A stretch of DNA of 64,000 nucleotides from Erysipelotrichaceae bacterium. GTDB taxonomy: Bacteria > Bacillota_I > Bacilli_A > Erysipelotrichales > Erysipelotrichaceae. The position numbers and the translations under genes were made by a program. The stretch covers positions 1-64,000 of the forward strand of contig JALENJ010000062.1 in NCBI GenBank assembly GCA_022767445.1, read 5' to 3'. The notes under the pieces are model-generated. The model did no database searches and was not told the DNA's origin. It saw only the letters and a list, made by a program, of their open reading frames with translations. Below, piece by piece: positions 29,866-52,445 of this stretch. Each line of letters begins with the position of its first letter. Within the stretch, counting starts at the first letter, position 1.

Positions 29866-30750
29866 TAAACTACCTAAAACTTCTTGAAGCGAAGGAATAC
29901 TCTGTGCTGCACCATCCTTCGTTACAGTTATACTGCTAGCTTTGCTTGCAATACGTAATGCATTTTCAATACTTTCATCGCGTAATAAACTCGCTAAGAA
30001 ATACCCAGTGAATGTATCACCTGCAGCCGTAGTATCAACTGCATGTACTTGATAGGCATCTTGATGAATCACTCTACCACTGCCTATATAGTAAGAACCA
30101 TCACTACCAATAGTTAAAACAATCTGTTTATCAGGATATGCATCCTGAAGTCCCTTGATGATATCATCAACATCATGTGATTGAACTTTTGCTAATCCCA
30201 TCGCTTCAATCTCGTTGACAATAAAGATGTCCACAAGCTCTATAGGATATTTAAATACCTTTTCATCCATCGGTGCTGTATTAAAGGCAATCTTCATACC
30301 CTTTTGATGTGCTTGACGTATCAAGTAATCTAAACAGGATATCTCATTTTGTATTAACAACATATCCTGTGAAGAAAAATGTTGTAAAACATCATCAATC
30401 TGTTTCTCATCAATTGCTTGATTTGCACCACCATGCAAGATAATACAGTTTTCACCATTACATACCTGTATGATTGCATGACCAGTGACTTCATCAACAT
30501 CTTTCTTTAGATAGTCTGTTTTAACTCCATACTTTTGCAGATAATCGATAAATGGTTGTCCATCTTCACCAACCCTGCCAGCATGGTAGACATCAATTCC
30601 AGACTTGGCTAAAGCAATGGATTGATTTAACCCCTTACCACCAAAACCCTTTTGATAAGAAAGGGATGAGGTTGTTTCTTTCGCTTCTACGAAGTGATGC
30701 ATCTGATATACATGATCAAAATTTAAAGAACCAAAGCTTAATACTTTCAT
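29863..30750 (-). CDS. Ribokinase (PfkB family)
   Basis: GFGGKGLNQSIALAKSGIDVYHAGRVGEDG...DTTAAGDTFTGYFLASLL. Confidence 0.9.
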   Translation of the reverse strand: MKVLSFGSLNFDHVYQMHHFVEAKETTSSLSYQKGFGGKGLNQSIALAKSGIDVYHAGRVGEDGQPFIDYLQKYGVKTDYLKKDVDEVTGHAIIQVCNGENCIILHGGANQAIDEKQIDDVLQHFSSQDMLLIQNEISCLDYLIRQAHQKGMKIAFNTAPMDEKVFKYPIELVDIFIVNEIEAMGLAKVQSHDVDDIIKGLQDAYPDKQIVLTIGSDGSYYIGSGRVIHQDAYQVHAVDTTAAGDTFTGYFLASLLRDESIENALRIASKASSITVTKDGAAQSIPSLQEVLGSL

Positions 30751-30758
30751 ATCATCTC

Positions 30759-31076
30759 CTATAGTAAATCGTATTTTTGACTACTACCCTTTGCGGTTTC
30801 GACTGGATACTTGTTTTCGTTCATCGTCATCTTCATGTTGATGATATCATCCATATCTAAACCAAGCTTATCTAATAGCTGTTGACTATAGATTAATACA
30901 CCTGCTAATTCCTCTTTTACATGTTGCATGTCAAAGTCATCCGACCATTGAAAACACTCCAAGAGTTCAGCAGCTTCTATCACGATAGACTTTGCTAGAT
31001 TGGATGGTGAATGAAACCGATCCCAATCTCTATTACTTACAAATTGACGAATACGATTGACTGTTTCTTCTTTCAT
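30759..31076 (-). CDS. MazG-like nucleotide pyrophosphohydrolase
   Basis: RDWDRFHSPSNLAKSIVIEAAELLECFQW...EELAGVLIYSQQLLDKLG. Confidence 0.88.
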   Translation of the reverse strand: MKEETVNRIRQFVSNRDWDRFHSPSNLAKSIVIEAAELLECFQWSDDFDMQHVKEELAGVLIYSQQLLDKLGLDMDDIINMKMTMNENKYPVETAKGSSQKYDLL

Positions 31077-33691: not shown

Positions 33692-33782
33692 GAGGAAATA
33701 CTCAAGAGGCCGAAGAGGTGCCCCTGCTAAGGGCATAGGTCGGGAAACCGGCGCGAGGGTTCAAATCCCTCTTTCCTCGCCA
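33692..33782 (+). tRNA. tRNA-Ser(GCU), CCA encoded
   Basis: Acceptor GAGGAAA/TTTCCTC, anticodon loop CCTGCTAAG, long variable arm, GGTTCAAATCC, CCA. Confidence 0.95.
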
Positions 33783-33788
33783 TACATT

Positions 33789-33865
33789 GGTCCCGTGGAG
33801 TAGTGGTTTATCTCGTCTCCCTGTCACGGAGAAGATCGCGAGTTCGAATCTCGTCGGGACCGCCA
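33789..33865 (+). tRNA. tRNA-Asp(GUC), CCA encoded
   Basis: GGTCCCG...CTGTCAC...GAGTTCGAATCTC...CGGGACC G CCA. Confidence 0.96.
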
Positions 33866-33872
33866 TTATTTT

Positions 33873-33943
33873 GCGAGTGTAGTTCAATGGTAGAACGCCA
33901 CCTTGCCAAGGTGGACACGGCGGTTCAATTCCGCTCACTCGCT
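33873..33943 (+). tRNA. tRNA-Gly(GCC), CCA not encoded
   Basis: GCGAGTG...CCTTGCCAAGG...GGTTCAATTCC...CACTCGC T followed by CCT. Confidence 0.95.
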
Positions 33944-33953
33944 CCTAATGAAT

Positions 33954-45405: not shown

Positions 45406-45672
45406 CTACATTATACAATATGCAAGCATAAAAAAAGAAGGCAACTCGTCAGCGCAGACCAAGATGTCTTCAACTTGAACATTTAGATACTTACTCAGCG
45501 CAAAGCAATTCTCAAGTGTTGGTAAACATTCACCACGTTCCCACTTGTATACAGCTTGCACGTCGGAGAAACCAAGATAATTCGCTAAATCGATGGTCTT
45601 CACATTGCGCTCTTTACGCAAGCGGCGAATATTACTACCAGTAGCACTTAAATTAACAACAGGATAATGCAT
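45406..45672 (-). CDS. XRE-family helix-turn-helix protein
   Basis: GSNIRRLRKERNVKTIDLANYLGFSDVQAVYKWERGECLPTLENCFALSKYLNVQVEDILV. Confidence 0.9.
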   Translation of the reverse strand: MHYPVVNLSATGSNIRRLRKERNVKTIDLANYLGFSDVQAVYKWERGECLPTLENCFALSKYLNVQVEDILVCADELPSFFMLAYCIM

Positions 45673-45752
45673 GACAATCACCTCCAAGTTCATCACCCAA
45701 AAAGAGTGGTACACCAATATATCACTCTTTCAATCTATTTGTAAATACCAAG

Positions 45753-45802
45753 ATACATACAGTGAAACTACTGTAATGGGCTTTTATTCACCCTATGTAT
45801 CA
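45753..45802. other. 50-nt three-way-junction-like element upstream of the XRE gene
   Basis: Outer stem GATACATA/TATGTATC; inner hairpins CAGT-gaaact-ACTG and GGG-cttttattca-CCC. Confidence 0.5.
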
Positions 45803-45834
45803 TTGCAATAAATATTGTTATCCGATAGAGAGAA

Positions 45835-46360
45835 AAGAGGCTGTGTAAAGCTAGCTACTTCTTTACATCTCTTCCCTAGACGTATGTCACATCAGCTCTA
45901 GTGGGAGTGATTACCCACACCTTTCACCTCGCTCTTCAGCGTCCTTATTCTTCTGATCTTATGTTTAACCAAGATTAGACGTTTGTCTTTAGGCTACTTG
46001 GAGAATCTCATTCCATATCTTATACACGGATTTCCCGCTTCACGACAAAATGGATTATGGCCCTTCTTAGGTTTATACACGAAGCCATCGCATACCTCAC
46101 TAAGATTCAGGCGTATTATTCATACAACCCTCTATTATTCCACCGATATGTATTCTGGACTATATTGCACAACGATACATGCCACCTGTAACTTTCAGGA
46201 ATTGCACCCTTCATCTAATATCACTATTTCGATGCGGTCGACCTATGAACAAGTATCCTTATCCAAGGTCCCGAGCCTATCCCAGATTCCCCAGCAAGTT
46301 GAGTAGACCATCTGCACTGGGTTATTACAGTAGCTTCACTGTATGTACCTGCTTGGTACA
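45835..46360 (-). ncRNA. Candidate ~525-nt structured non-coding RNA (family not identified)
   Basis: Minus strand purine-rich, many stops in the minus frame inspected, hairpins, promoter at 46367-46395 and terminator-like hairpin at 45835-45873. Confidence 0.5.
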
Positions 46361-46366
46361 GTTATT

Positions 46367-46395
46367 ATTCTACGTAACTTACAATATCCAAACAA
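46367..46395 (-). promoter_or_regulatory. Promoter TTGTTT-17 bp-TAGAAT driving the candidate ncRNA
   Basis: Minus-strand TTGTTT (46390-46395) and TAGAAT (46367-46372). Confidence 0.65.
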
Positions 46396-46488
46396 TGAAC
46401 TTGTAGTTCAATTTTAAAACGCATGCATAATACTTGCATTTAATAGTTAGTTAGTCTAAACTAATCATAGATACAGGAGGATGATAAC

Positions 46489-46563
46489 ATGAGAAAAACA
46501 ATCCAAAAACGTGTCCTATTCATTGAGAAGCTAGTTAAGAATCTCAACAAAAGCCTACACTAA
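46489..46563 (+). CDS. 24-aa cationic small ORF MRKTIQKRVLFIEKLVKNLNKSLH
   Basis: Strong Shine-Dalgarno ACAGGAGG 8-9 nt before ATG; below the ORF-track length cut-off. Confidence 0.5.
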   Translation: MRKTIQKRVLFIEKLVKNLNKSLH

Positions 46564-46669: not shown

Positions 46670-47068
46670 CTATTTACTCTTAGGATATAAATCCTTTTCA
46701 AACTGGAATCCCCAGTTCATGATGGAATAAAATACTGGAATGAGTCCCCTTCCCATAGTGGTTAGGGAATATTCAACATGTGGTGGTATTTCGTTGTATT
46801 GTTTGCGCGAGATGAGTCCATCATCTTCCAACTCTCGCAATGCCTTCGTCAACATTGTATTGGTGATATCTGGCAAATCTTTCTTTAACTGTCCAAAGCG
46901 TACTGTTTCATGGATACACATTTCATACATCAACTGTGATTTCCATCTTCCTTGTAACATTACCAATAATGGTGTGACTGGGCAATTACCATCTTTTGTG
47001 ATGATCCCCTTCTTTAAATTAACAAGGTAATCATCATAACTCATATATTCTCTAGGTTTGTGATTCAT
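46670..47068 (-). CDS. HxlR-family winged-helix regulator
   Basis: NCPVTPLLVMLQGRWKSQLMYEMCIHETVRFGQLKKDLPDITNTMLTKALRELEDDGLISRKQYNEIPPHVEYSLTTMGRGLIPV. Confidence 0.95.
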   Translation of the reverse strand: MNHKPREYMSYDDYLVNLKKGIITKDGNCPVTPLLVMLQGRWKSQLMYEMCIHETVRFGQLKKDLPDITNTMLTKALRELEDDGLISRKQYNEIPPHVEYSLTTMGRGLIPVFYSIMNWGFQFEKDLYPKSK

Positions 47069-49310
47069 TGTTGCCTCCTGTTGTTGTATTCCAAGATAGA
47101 ACTCTTCTCATCATTATTTCGATGTCTAATACACCATACGCAAATCCTTTTCTAACAAGTTCATCAGGAACATACATATCGTATTTCTCAAATACGGGAA
47201 CCTCATTTGGATATACTAGTTCCATTGGATCAATACCCTTCTGTGCCTCTTCCTTTAGCACTTGATAAAATGTCTTCTCATCTGCTTGCATGGTGAATTG
47301 AATGTAGTATGGTCTAAAAGAGGTTAATCCTCTTAAACCTAATCTTTTTGCACAACGTATCTTTAAGAAACGTTCTAATGACAAGAATGCATAGGTACCA
47401 AGCCATGGGAATAATGCCCACATATTACCGCCAAGATGAATCAGTGGCTTTTCTTGCATGTTGGCCTTACGGAACGTTTCTCTAGCATCGTGTAGACGAT
47501 AGATTGCATTGTTCATTAGGAATGGGTATACCGTATCCTCATTTAAAACTTGGTGCATTCTTTCAAGGATGCGTGTATGGATATCACCAGCCACATCACC
47601 AAAGTATGCAGGAATATTTCCCTTCACAAGTGTTACGTATAATTCTCTGCGTTTGTGGTCAACTTCATCAACAACCCAAACTCTACCAGCTATCGCAATT
47701 TTATCACCTACTGGTGGTGGTTTTACGATTGTACCTAATTGCTCAGATCCAGCATGAACAGTATATTCGATATTCTCTTGGAATACCGCAAGGAACTTGT
47801 AGTTATTGACAACTCTTTCTCCTGTAATGCCAAGAATCAAACCATTGTTTTCTGTTTGATTGATATGATCCGCCTTGATCAAATGATGCAATAGAATACG
47901 ATAATCTTCTTGGTCAATCCGTTTAAAACAATTTAGGCTCAATACACGACTTGCCAGCTCTGCTGGTGTCATTTCACCATGTGAAGCAAGTGTACTCATT
48001 GTCTGATGATATAGAAGACTGTATGGTAATCGATCTGTCTTTGGTGGTTCGACAAAACGTTCTTCGATGTACAACTGTACTAATGCAATTCCTTGAATCA
48101 AATACCAAGGAATCAAATCCGGTAACATCGCTCTGGCTTCTGAATGTTCCTCACGCATCACAAACCACATCTCAGATGGTGTACCACGTCTGCCAGTACG
48201 TCCCATTCTTTGTAAGAAACCAGATACTGTAAATGGCGCATCAATCTGGAAAGCACGCTCTAATCTACCAATATCAATACCTAATTCAAGTGTTGCAGTT
48301 GCACAGACACTCATATTTGAATCATTGTCCTTCATATCCTCTTCTGCACTTTCACGATACGAGGCAGATAGATTTCCATGATGGATTAAGAAACGATCCG
48401 GCTCATGATTCACCTCACAGTATTGCCTTAGATACTGACATACCGACTCACATTCTTCTCTCGAATTTGTAAATATCAAGCATTTTCGATTCCTGGTATG
48501 TTCAAAGATATAACCAATGCCAGGATCGGCATTCTCAGGTGCTCTATCACTCGGCATCTCAACAACCGGAAGATTCTCATTCAATGCTTTTCCATCCGAA
48601 GCTTGATGACCATTGTTATAGAAGTGTTCCATAGACAAACGCCAAACTTCCTTCGTTGCCTCAAACGATGGAATGATACAATCCCTACCGCTACCAGCGG
48701 ATAAAAATTTACCTGCTTCCTCAGGGCTACCAATAGTGGCAGATAGACCAATTCTTCTAGGATTACACTGGGCAATCTTACACAATCTTTCAATCAAACA
48801 AAATGTCTGTAAACCTCTATCTGCTCGTAGTAATGAGTGTATTTCGTCAATGACGATAAAGCGTAAATCATAGAATAAGCTTGGAATCTCCATATGCTTA
48901 TTGATGAGTAAAGATTCCAAGGATTCCGGTGTAATCTGCACAATTCCAGCAGGCTTTTTAATCAATTTACGTTTTTGTGTTTGTGAAGCTTCCCCATGCC
49001 ACTTGGTAACAGGGATACCTGCATCCTGGCAGATGACATTCAAACGTTCAAACTGATCGTTAATTAGTGCCTTCAAGGGAGCGATATACAATACACCAAC
49101 ACTGGTAGATGGATTTTCATCCAGCAGTGTCAAGATAGGAAAGAAGGCAGCTTCCGTTTTACCAGAGGCAGTGGACGCTGTTAATAACACATTCTGATCC
49201 GTATTGAAGATTGCTTCACCAGCAGCGTTTTGAATACCACGTAGTACTTGCCAACCTGATTGATAAATATAGTCTTGTATAAATGGTGCATATCTTTCAA
49301 ATACATTCAT
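47052..49310 (-). CDS. Lhr/BrxHI-like DEAD/DEAH helicase, candidate Shango SngC
   Basis: TASTASGKTEAAFFP, VIDEIHSLL, LSATIGSPEEA, QRMGRTGRRGTPSE; next to BrxD-like ATPase and TerB-N protein. Confidence 0.9.
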   Translation of the reverse strand: MNVFERYAPFIQDYIYQSGWQVLRGIQNAAGEAIFNTDQNVLLTASTASGKTEAAFFPILTLLDENPSTSVGVLYIAPLKALINDQFERLNVICQDAGIPVTKWHGEASQTQKRKLIKKPAGIVQITPESLESLLINKHMEIPSLFYDLRFIVIDEIHSLLRADRGLQTFCLIERLCKIAQCNPRRIGLSATIGSPEEAGKFLSAGSGRDCIIPSFEATKEVWRLSMEHFYNNGHQASDGKALNENLPVVEMPSDRAPENADPGIGYIFEHTRNRKCLIFTNSREECESVCQYLRQYCEVNHEPDRFLIHHGNLSASYRESAEEDMKDNDSNMSVCATATLELGIDIGRLERAFQIDAPFTVSGFLQRMGRTGRRGTPSEMWFVMREEHSEARAMLPDLIPWYLIQGIALVQLYIEERFVEPPKTDRLPYSLLYHQTMSTLASHGEMTPAELASRVLSLNCFKRIDQEDYRILLHHLIKADHINQTENNGLILGITGERVVNNYKFLAVFQENIEYTVHAGSEQLGTIVKPPPVGDKIAIAGRVWVVDEVDHKRRELYVTLVKGNIPAYFGDVAGDIHTRILERMHQVLNEDTVYPFLMNNAIYRLHDARETFRKANMQEKPLIHLGGNMWALFPWLGTYAFLSLERFLKIRCAKRLGLRGLTSFRPYYIQFTMQADEKTFYQVLKEEAQKGIDPMELVYPNEVPVFEKYDMYVPDELVRKGFAYGVLDIEIMMRRVLSWNTTTGGNNESQT

Positions 49311-50632
49311 ATTGTAAACTCCACGAAGTTTTGATCTGCTTCATCAGAGACTGCCTCTGATTTCGTAAAAGTAAATTCAGAGGAATCAAGAATGGAACGC
49401 ATTGTTTGTGATGGATTTTGATAGATGATATCCAACAGTTCAATAAAGTCACGAATAATCTCACGAGGTGTGATATTCATATCCGCTCCAACACGTCCAT
49501 ATTCTATTTTGATAAACGAACTTAAATCATCTGTCGTTACATGTTTTTGATATCCGTATAAACTTGCATGCATATCCGTTAGTTTCTCGCACAACACCAA
49601 CATTTCCTCTGGTGTTAATGGGTCCAAGCGAATCACAGGAGCTAACATATCACGCACACCAGGTTTTGAGAATTTACCTTCAGCCAAACGAGAACGCAAC
49701 GCTTCATAACTATAGATACCACGACGCTTATCATCCAAGGCTTGTGGAGTAGCACCCATAATAATACCTAGGTACTTGGCTTTACCTTGAAGGGTATCGT
49801 TGTACATCGTTAATATCTTTTCATAGTTGTATTGACGTGTAATTGAATTTGGAATCTTAAAGATATTGACAAGTTCATCAATCATAATCAACATGCCTGC
49901 ATATCCTGCTAAGCGGAAGAATACTGCAAATAACTTCAGGTATTCATACCAATCATCATCTGTGATAATCATATTTACACCCAAGTCTTCTTTCGCTTCA
50001 CGCTTTAAATTATATTCCCCACGGAACCAACGTAAGACTTTTAACTTCAATTCCTCATCACTATCGATATACGCATGGTAATACTTCGACAATAACATCG
50101 CAAACTCATAACCATGTACCAACTCACTTAATTGTGAAGTCACCTCGAAGATCTTTTGATCGACTTGTCTTGTAAGATTTACATCACCTGGTAGTACGTT
50201 TGTCTCTTGCATAATCGACATCTGAATCGAATTGATCCACTTATCCAATACAAGGCTCAAAGCACCACCTTCAGGCTTAGTCTTAGTAGAAAGATTGCCA
50301 ATGAGTTCTCGATACGTCGCAAGCCCCTGACCTCTTGTGCCTTGTAGACGTCTTTCTGGTGATAGATCTCCATCTACAACAATAAACCCACTATCCATCA
50401 CATAGTTACGTATTGTCTGTATCAAAAAACTCTTACCAGATCCATATCTACCAACGATAAAGCGAAAGGAAGCTCCTCCCTCTTTGATAATATCGACATC
50501 ATGTAATAGTGCGTCAATCTCATTTTTTCTTCCTACGGTAATATATGGCAAACCAATTCTTGGCACAACACCACCCTTTAAAGAATTCAATACTGCTTGT
50601 GAGATTCTTTTTGGTATTTTAATTTGTTCCAT
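49307..50632 (-). CDS. BrxD/DUF2791-like P-loop ATPase, candidate Shango SngB
   Basis: FRFIVGRYGSGKSFLIQTIRNYVM Walker A, MLIMIDELVNIFKI Walker B; characteristic 'GIVPRIGLPYITVGR' type N-terminus. Confidence 0.88.
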   Translation of the reverse strand: MEQIKIPKRISQAVLNSLKGGVVPRIGLPYITVGRKNEIDALLHDVDIIKEGGASFRFIVGRYGSGKSFLIQTIRNYVMDSGFIVVDGDLSPERRLQGTRGQGLATYRELIGNLSTKTKPEGGALSLVLDKWINSIQMSIMQETNVLPGDVNLTRQVDQKIFEVTSQLSELVHGYEFAMLLSKYYHAYIDSDEELKLKVLRWFRGEYNLKREAKEDLGVNMIITDDDWYEYLKLFAVFFRLAGYAGMLIMIDELVNIFKIPNSITRQYNYEKILTMYNDTLQGKAKYLGIIMGATPQALDDKRRGIYSYEALRSRLAEGKFSKPGVRDMLAPVIRLDPLTPEEMLVLCEKLTDMHASLYGYQKHVTTDDLSSFIKIEYGRVGADMNITPREIIRDFIELLDIIYQNPSQTMRSILDSSEFTFTKSEAVSDEADQNFVEFTI

Positions 50633-50636
50633 GATG

Positions 50637-52445
50637 CTAACCTCCTAATTCTTCAAGTACTTCTTCTCTATAATCTTCAACCAATCTCAATTGATCATCA
50701 TCCATCTCTAGCACATTATCTCCAATTGTATCAAACAGCGCTTCGTTGATGGTATCCATCACAATGGATGCCATCAAATGATGATCACGTAATAATTGTG
50801 TAATATCTTTATTCTCTACAACATGCATTAATATCTGTGTATGTATTTCATCCAAGCCATCGATTTGATGTGCTGTATTTGTTTCAGGTTCAACCTCATC
50901 AATATCCTGTAGTCTCTCCTCATCCGTCAATAGATTATCTCTGGTAATCGAGGCATCGATTCGAATCTTCTCAAGATTCGATAAATCAATCTCTACCTTT
51001 GGACTGAGTGCTTGCATGTCTTCTTCTTTTTGAGTTTGTATGATATCTGAGATGGCATCGATAACCCAAGCATCTTCAGGTTTATTCTTTAGATCACGAC
51101 CTGCATTCATATATTTACGCAATAACATCTCAGTGCCATGCACAAAACCCCTAAACAATCTCTTATTTCCAGCACTTGGATAATATTTTTCGATATACCA
51201 GGTACCATTACTGAGCTGATAACTTCTTGTTTCATTTATTTGATATGTAGTATCTTCAATCACAAATTGATCATAATATACAACATACCGCAAAGGATTC
51301 CATACTGTCTTTTCCAGTTTACCAAAGCACTTTTCAAATGCATTCTCTTTCTGTAGTAATACATTCCATGCCTTTGCATAAAGATATTCCGCTTTTTTTT
51401 GATCTTTTTTAAAGACTGGTGATTCAAATAATTTGTTTTGGGTCAATGCATCAATTGCCATACATACTTTGGTATCAGAGTATTTCTGTGCATCCTTTAA
51501 AATACCAATCATATCATCTTCTTCCAATGCTTTCTTTGTATCAATTGGAAGATTAATACCATCCAATGGCAATTGATGCATCATACAATATTCAAACATG
51601 CATTGATGAATACTATCTAATAGATATGGAGTACCACTTGCATAGGGTTGATACATTTCAATAAACTCTTTTAACTTCTCTACTGCATCCAATGCTGAAG
51701 TAGATCCAATTCCAGAAAATAACTCACTCATATACATGTACACAAAATTCTCTGGAGCCGCATAATACACATGTTTACGTATACTTGTACGCCAAGTAAA
51801 ATAACATCTTAGCTGTTCGAAGGAGAAATCATGGTATGTAGGATATGTTGAAGAATACTTGATTTCTCCTTCAGCTTTATAGTCATCCTCAAATTCCTCC
51901 ATAAACTTACCTTGGCGATAAAAATTCAATGTACGAGTTCGATTGGCTGTAATCTCATAATGGAATAACTTCTTCATATCTTTGATACGTTGTGGCGTAT
52001 CAACAATCGATTTGTTGCGAGAAACAACATCACCCTTAAATGATAATGGTGTATCTGCATAGGTTTTATTCACAACTCTTCCATGATAAATCTTTTCTTG
52101 TTTTAAATCATCTGTGAGTGCTCTGGCTTTTTCAAATAATTCAAATACAATCTTTGGATTTGTGTTTTCATGAAAGCGAATATTTACCCAATCATGTCCA
52201 TGCATGCGTATGGGAGGATTGATATAGCTTTCATGATAGTTCAATAGTGTATCTCTACCACTTCGTATATCGCAACACTCAATCTCTTCGCCACTATCCG
52301 TATCCCATTGGCGCATAAAAAGTGCGATCCATTTTAAACTTGATGGATTACACAATACGGAAAAGTTTGGAAATTTCTCCCATTTGAATTCCTCGATGAT
52401 TTGATATTTTTCATTTGCGTATTTCGCTAAATCATTTAATTCCAA
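50637..52445 (-). CDS. TerB N-/C-terminal domain-like protein, candidate Shango SngA
   Basis: LRCYFTWRTSIRKHVYYAAPENFVYMYMSELFSGIGSTSALDAVEKLKEFIEMY resembles TerB-N proteins; gene order with ATPase and helicase. Confidence 0.75.
   Translation of the reverse strand: MELNDLAKYANEKYQIIEEFKWEKFPNFSVLCNPSSLKWIALFMRQWDTDSGEEIECCDIRSGRDTLLNYHESYINPPIRMHGHDWVNIRFHENTNPKIVFELFEKARALTDDLKQEKIYHGRVVNKTYADTPLSFKGDVVSRNKSIVDTPQRIKDMKKLFHYEITANRTRTLNFYRQGKFMEEFEDDYKAEGEIKYSSTYPTYHDFSFEQLRCYFTWRTSIRKHVYYAAPENFVYMYMSELFSGIGSTSALDAVEKLKEFIEMYQPYASGTPYLLDSIHQCMFEYCMMHQLPLDGINLPIDTKKALEEDDMIGILKDAQKYSDTKVCMAIDALTQNKLFESPVFKKDQKKAEYLYAKAWNVLLQKENAFEKCFGKLEKTVWNPLRYVVYYDQFVIEDTTYQINETRSYQLSNGTWYIEKYYPSAGNKRLFRGFVHGTEMLLRKYMNAGRDLKNKPEDAWVIDAISDIIQTQKEEDMQALSPKVEIDLSNLEKIRIDASITRDNLLTDEERLQDIDEVEPETNTAHQIDGLDEIHTQILMHVVENKDITQLLRDHHLMASIVMDTINEALFDTIGDNVLEMDDDQLRLVEDYREEVLEELGG

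Follow-up and report, generated by a model that had tools for sequence, protein, structure and literature searches.

ROOL cages rank among the largest natural RNA-only assemblies. One ROOL RNA forms an octamer in vitro (PMC12286853), and in the cryo-EM structure of the ROOL env-120, L8 of one chain makes a kissing contact with J6/8 of the next (PMC12286853). The ROOL of L. salivarius has been studied in the cell: in stationary phase its abundance equals that of 16S rRNA, its deletion, with or without the adjacent HTH gene, causes no growth phenotype, and the HTH gene is a separate transcription unit, the product of which may affect ROOL expression or stability (PMC5643018).

The RNA described here is encoded on the minus strand of a 64,000-nt stretch of an Erysipelotrichaceae contig (the window). 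A cmscan comparison of the whole window with 4,227 Rfam families detected ROOL (RF03087) at 45759-46345, scoring 279.5 bits where the gathering score is 99.1, with an E-value of 5.8e-63, which is more than chance, and the match covers the model end to end (1-574 of 574). No other Rfam family matches the region, even at E-values up to 1. This includes OLE, GOLLD, HEARO, raiA and the group II intron, whose covariance models do not match at the ROOL locus. Elsewhere in the window, at 2635-2942 on the minus strand, there are two group II intron domain matches (RF02001, RF01998), near which we did not notice a reverse-transcriptase ORF.

A sequence-only reading of this DNA had proposed a large, ornate non-coding RNA in the size class of OLE, ROOL or HEARO. 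The Rfam covariance-model search that it suggested settles the family, since the single match in the region, above the gathering threshold, is the full-length one to ROOL. The RNA can no longer be called unexplained, as Rfam already lists the family together with its consensus structure, and a cryo-EM structure has been published (PMC12286853). The same reading saw no plausible protein, and indeed neither strand contains a convincing protein-coding gene between 45835 and 46360; the 107-aa plus-strand ORF that it listed (45983-46306) is antisense to the ROOL RNA. We consider the identity of the locus as ROOL near certain. The more specific reading is that a complete ROOL RNA of about 590-620 nt is encoded on the chromosome here and transcribed leftwards from its own sigma-70-type promoter. 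In our estimate this reading has a probability of roughly 0.93, a figure that refers to the identity of the RNA and not to its function. The family being known, what is new here is a chromosomal member.

The window ROOL shares only 58% sequence identity with the model consensus. Among the 159 consensus pairs that are readable in the model alignment, 152 have letters on both sides, and 129 of these (85%) are canonical, including 46 that are altered on both sides relative to the consensus. When the 3' partners are slid by 1-3 columns as a control, the proportion of canonical pairs drops to about 40-50%. The retention of canonical pairs at 58% identity indicates that pairing has been preserved by compensatory change. 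The minus strand had been described earlier as rich in structure; it is indeed highly structured, with the ROOL helices kept. A blastn search with the window ROOL found no match in phages and plasmids, because ROOL is too divergent for DNA comparison.

The contact that joins ROOL subunits (bridge B4) also has a counterpart in the window. A loop AUGGC (46084-46088, minus strand) is complementary to a GCCAU segment (46057-46061, minus strand), and by position and complementarity the two can be labelled as the L8 and J6/8 sides of the intermolecular kissing contact. Complementary segments are found in similar places in other ROOLs: AUUGGC/GCCAAU in the related loci C3 (a second ROOL contig of the same assembly) and G061 (the single-contig chromosome of a related species), GGUAA/UUACC in three genomes of the genus (G019, G006, G020), UUGGAA/UUCCAA in L034 and UUGACA/UGUCAA in L024. 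Judging from these sequences, the subunit-joining contact is kept and covarying, and its retention supports cage assembly. The unconserved linker is present as well, as an A-rich, poorly alignable stretch of about 60 nt between the GCCUAAAGAC and GCUGAAGAG segments. Building on the observed model match, pairing and contact, we suggest that the RNA, its two ends paired in a long P1 helix, would assemble through L8 and J6/8 into an octameric RNA-only cage, as another ROOL does. Because the end pairing in P1 and the L8-J6/8 contact are both kept, such a cage is probable. In two species of the genus, tandem ROOLs lie about 30 nt apart (L007/L002, G004:C93:29743-30329 and 30359-30861; L016/L014, G071:C5:65126-65700 and 65729-66235). 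The upstream copy of each pair, 503-507 nt long, does not have the linker that lies inside the cage, which raises the possibility of mixed cages.

Set against C3, G061 and the L. salivarius ROOL, the window sequence allows P1 to be extended beyond the model. The full transcript would span about 46360-45740 on the minus strand, roughly 621 nt, with UGUACCAA at the 5' end pairing with UUGGUAUUUACA at the 3' end. The two strands of the helix (46324-46360 and 45740-45777) cofold with -47.7 kcal/mol. The extended pairing is present in G061 and C3 as well, and in L. salivarius UCC118 the outer P1 reads UGUACCGA/UCGGUUUACA, a compensatory change relative to the window. A 5' hairpin reported previously (GTACC-aagca-GGTAC) competes with this long, comparatively supported end-to-end helix. 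The promoter that had been proposed, TTGTTT-17-TAGAAT, holds up: its -35 box (46390-46395), which is too weak for the consensus promoter scan, and its -10 box (46367-46372) align with TTGCGG-17-TAGAAT in C3 and TTGTGG-17-TAAAAT in G061, and the 5' end suggested by P1 (46360) lies near the point where transcription from the TAGAAT box should begin.

The 3' end needs revision. The model match ends at 45759 and outer P1 at about 45740, so that an end at 45835 leaves out about 75-95 nt, among them the 3' strand of P1. What had been taken for a terminator (45835-45876, minus strand) lies within the model match: it is one of the conserved internal helices of ROOL, close to the 3' end, with loop AAGUAGCUAG. 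A likelier terminator would be the hairpin at 45730-45701, followed by TTTTT. The hairpin-terminator scan reports this element at 45696-45730, listed on the plus strand (the stem is symmetric), and it overlaps the promoter of the next gene. In C3 and G061, paired compensatory changes preserve its stem, although the T tail there is weak. A near-palindrome TTAGTTAGTCTAAACTAA (46447-46464), located upstream of the ROOL promoter and conserved in the window, C3 and G061, is a candidate operator. The word TGTACCA, which is common to the ROOL start and the promoter of the downstream gene, was also considered as an operator and set aside, as P1 pairing constrains it too. Further upstream, a 24-codon ORF, MRKTIQKRVLFIEKLVKNLNKSLH (46489-46563, plus strand), is divergent from ROOL, has a strong AGGAGG ribosome-binding site and is conserved at a related locus, with MRKTIYKRILFLEKLFSKIENKSN as its counterpart in C3 (from the alignment, translated by eye).

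On the minus strand, ROOL is followed by an XRE/Cro-type HTH regulator (45672-45406) and a Sel1-repeat protein (45378-44740; Pfam Sel1). The ROOL-XRE-Sel1 order is the same in C3 and G061, and on this side more than 15 kb of the G061 chromosome aligns collinearly with the window. Over 6.8 kb, C3 matches G061 at 98% identity. Its ROOL, which could have come from a duplication within one genome, is for this reason more likely to lie on a stray contig that a related strain contributed to the assembly than to be a true second copy. The side upstream of ROOL carries different genes in the three cases. In the window, these are an HxlR regulator and, all on the minus strand, the genes of a Shango defence system for the SngC helicase (47052-49310; padloc E 1.5e-276), the BrxC/D-like ATPase SngB (49307-50632; padloc E 7.4e-189; Pfam BrxC_BrxD) and the TerB_N/TerB_C protein SngA (50637-52445; padloc E 9.2e-56). 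In G061, they are a NERD-helicase and a DruE-like (Druantia-like) protein, and in C3 unrelated small genes. ROOL therefore borders a variable site.

Such neighbours could mean that ROOL is a defence or counter-defence RNA that works with the systems next to it. The Shango genes of the window and the DruE and NERD-helicase genes of G061 point in this direction, as do the type I restriction-modification system beside the ROOL of L. salivarius ZLS006 and the type I specificity genes beside an Atopobiaceae ROOL (L043). However, many ROOL loci have no defence neighbour, and defence genes cluster at variable sites anyway; the association has to be read without a background rate. As an account of function, we consider this unlikely.

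ROOLs are mostly phage or prophage genes, judging from the literature (PMC12286853) and from the phage loci that we looked at. It is therefore conceivable that the window ROOL is the decaying remnant of a lost prophage, recognizable but functionless; it scores 279.5 bits, less than the copies in C3 (339 bits) and G061 (336 bits), and 23 of the 152 pairs are non-canonical. Against this, the RNA is full length, the promoter elements, the P1 ends and the B4 contact are all kept, and the differences between window and C3 at B4 and in the downstream hairpin are compensatory. Moreover, phage-like genes were not recognized by eye among the ORFs of the window, and the locus is syntenic with G061. The usual, though not defining, location of ROOL in a phage or prophage near a tRNA island was not found in the window, in which the nearest tRNA genes (33692-33945) are about 12 kb from ROOL. 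Decay is thus quite improbable. A chromosomal ROOL that occurs in two related species, outside a recognizable prophage and with a fixed partner gene, provides a simple genetic setting to probe the role of ROOL.

The partner gene (45406-45672, minus strand; 88 aa; Pfam HTH_3 E 1.4e-9) starts 86 nt downstream of ROOL and has a promoter of its own, TTTACA-18-TATATT (45716-45745, minus strand), with 10 of 12 matches in the promoter scan and both boxes also present in C3 and G061. The shared strand, the short distance and the conserved order might suggest that ROOL is not a free-standing RNA but belongs to the XRE-Sel1 genes, as their long 5' UTR (leader) or as a regulator in cis. The separate promoter and the terminator-like hairpin between ROOL and the XRE gene speak against this idea, as do the separate transcription of the L. 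salivarius HTH gene (PMC5643018) and the fact that most ROOLs examined have no XRE neighbour downstream, which together make a leader very improbable. The least tenable alternative, a degraded transposase or other mobile-element end, was raised by the sequence-only reading and takes account of the missing intact ORF, but can be dismissed, as the ROOL model explains the region fully, the RNA is intact with conserved pairing, and a related chromosome shows synteny at the locus.

The XRE protein, made from its own promoter, is a plausible regulator of either ROOL transcription or its own; we give this idea an even chance. Across 70 genomes of the genus, proteins more than 80% identical to the window XRE are confined to the ROOL loci of the window, C3 and G061; the closest one elsewhere reaches 49%. 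When plasmids were searched at the protein level with the window XRE, 33 of the 53 records were L. salivarius megaplasmids. In UCC118, the match is to the HTH gene that follows the known ROOL after 77 nt, a member of the same XRE family. ROOL and XRE occur together in all 10 L. salivarius plasmids compared, with about 96% or more DNA identity across the stretch, next to upstream genes that vary: a PTS gene, a whole type I restriction-modification system together with a tyrosine recombinase (ZLS006, L093), DUF3800 (S39) or lantibiotic genes (2102-15). A common origin of the ROOL-linked XREs was tested by tree and is unsupported. The XREs of the two ROOL lineages fall into different branches of one family and are not sisters, and the pairing of ROOL with XRE may therefore have arisen more than once. 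In two L. salivarius loci (L075, L076), cmscan did not find ROOL, although they share about 98% DNA identity with the ROOL region of UCC118; the Rfam model gives 130 bits to a ROOL that is about 98% identical to theirs. These misses mark a sensitivity limit, and the cmscan counts of ROOL are therefore lower bounds.

Small XREs of this family recur on chromosomes, a plasmid and gut phage contigs (L048-L067, L077, L082, L084-L086). Some are directly beside tRNA arrays, at five loci of the genus (L054, L058, L064, L066, L067), on a Ruminococcus albus plasmid (L077) and on gut phage contigs (L084, L085, L086); some are beside RtcB (L063, L082, L085) or DUF2828 proteins (L048, L049, L054, L055, L059). 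Three other genomes of the genus have ROOL itself about 35 nt ahead of rtcB (L003, L004 and L005, in G019, G006 and G020), with a weakly WYL-like gene on the other side of ROOL, and in G006, where this was tested, macro-domain, ADP-ribosylglycohydrolase, B3/4 and VWA genes are nearby. Many of the phage ROOLs checked sit near tRNAs. Divergent genes for 346-458 aa, with a WYL/WCX match that is weak (below cut-off) or missing, are found upstream of ROOL in G081, a Eubacteriales bacterium and a Coriobacteriaceae bacterium (L015, L036, L039), and this type of gene may be a second recurring neighbour. RtcB is absent from the window's own genome and was rejected as an obligatory partner of ROOL. Outside the genus, the spread of ROOL and its neighbours comes from motif scans and has no background rate to be read against.

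These neighbourhoods suggest a link of ROOL to RNA repair or phage conflict. In Salmonella, rtcB and Y RNAs share an operon, which damaged tRNA induces (PMC7790460); in the literature library that we searched, ROOL and RtcB were not found together in any paper. Because of this operon, and because tRNA arrays, RtcB and DUF2828 recur next to ROOL or its XRE family, a role in RNA repair is worth testing. Such work has a direction in the recurrence of one XRE family, RtcB and tRNA arrays in these neighbourhoods. The cage would hold or shield an RNA, or a protein that processes RNA, when the cell is under stress or attacked by phage, in connection with tRNA damage and repair; we propose this job tentatively, from the neighbourhoods, and give it a low probability. 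The broader model is equally speculative. It would place ROOL in a recurring RNA-repair and tRNA-array neighbourhood, in which one XRE family (or a WYL-like protein) occurs with RtcB, DUF2828 or tRNA arrays; the cage would handle damaged tRNA or an RNA-cleaving enzyme in phage or stress attack, and ROOL would in some lineages have become a fixed chromosomal gene at the border of a defence-exchange site.

Together, the comparisons with described systems place the window RNA as follows. GOLLD (RF02032) is, like ROOL, a phage-borne cage-forming RNA (PMC12286853), but differs from it in sequence and fold and does not match in the window. One phage contig (L018, IMGVR_UViG_3300022753_000048) carries ROOL, GOLLD and a large tRNA island together. 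The lncRNA of the L. salivarius megaplasmid (the pMP118 ROOL; PMC5643018) resembles the window locus in being followed by an XRE of the same family and in having upstream genes that vary between strains. However, it is plasmid-borne and lacks the Sel1 gene, its similarity to the window RNA is not detectable by blastn, and its XRE is only 36% identical to that of the window and not its sister in the tree. With ROOL as defined by RF03087 and by the env-120 structure (PMC12286853), the window RNA shares the whole consensus (1-574), the closure by P1, the variable linker and the L8-J6/8 contact; it differs in its setting, which is chromosomal, outside a recognizable prophage, and flanked by XRE-Sel1 on one side and Shango on the other.
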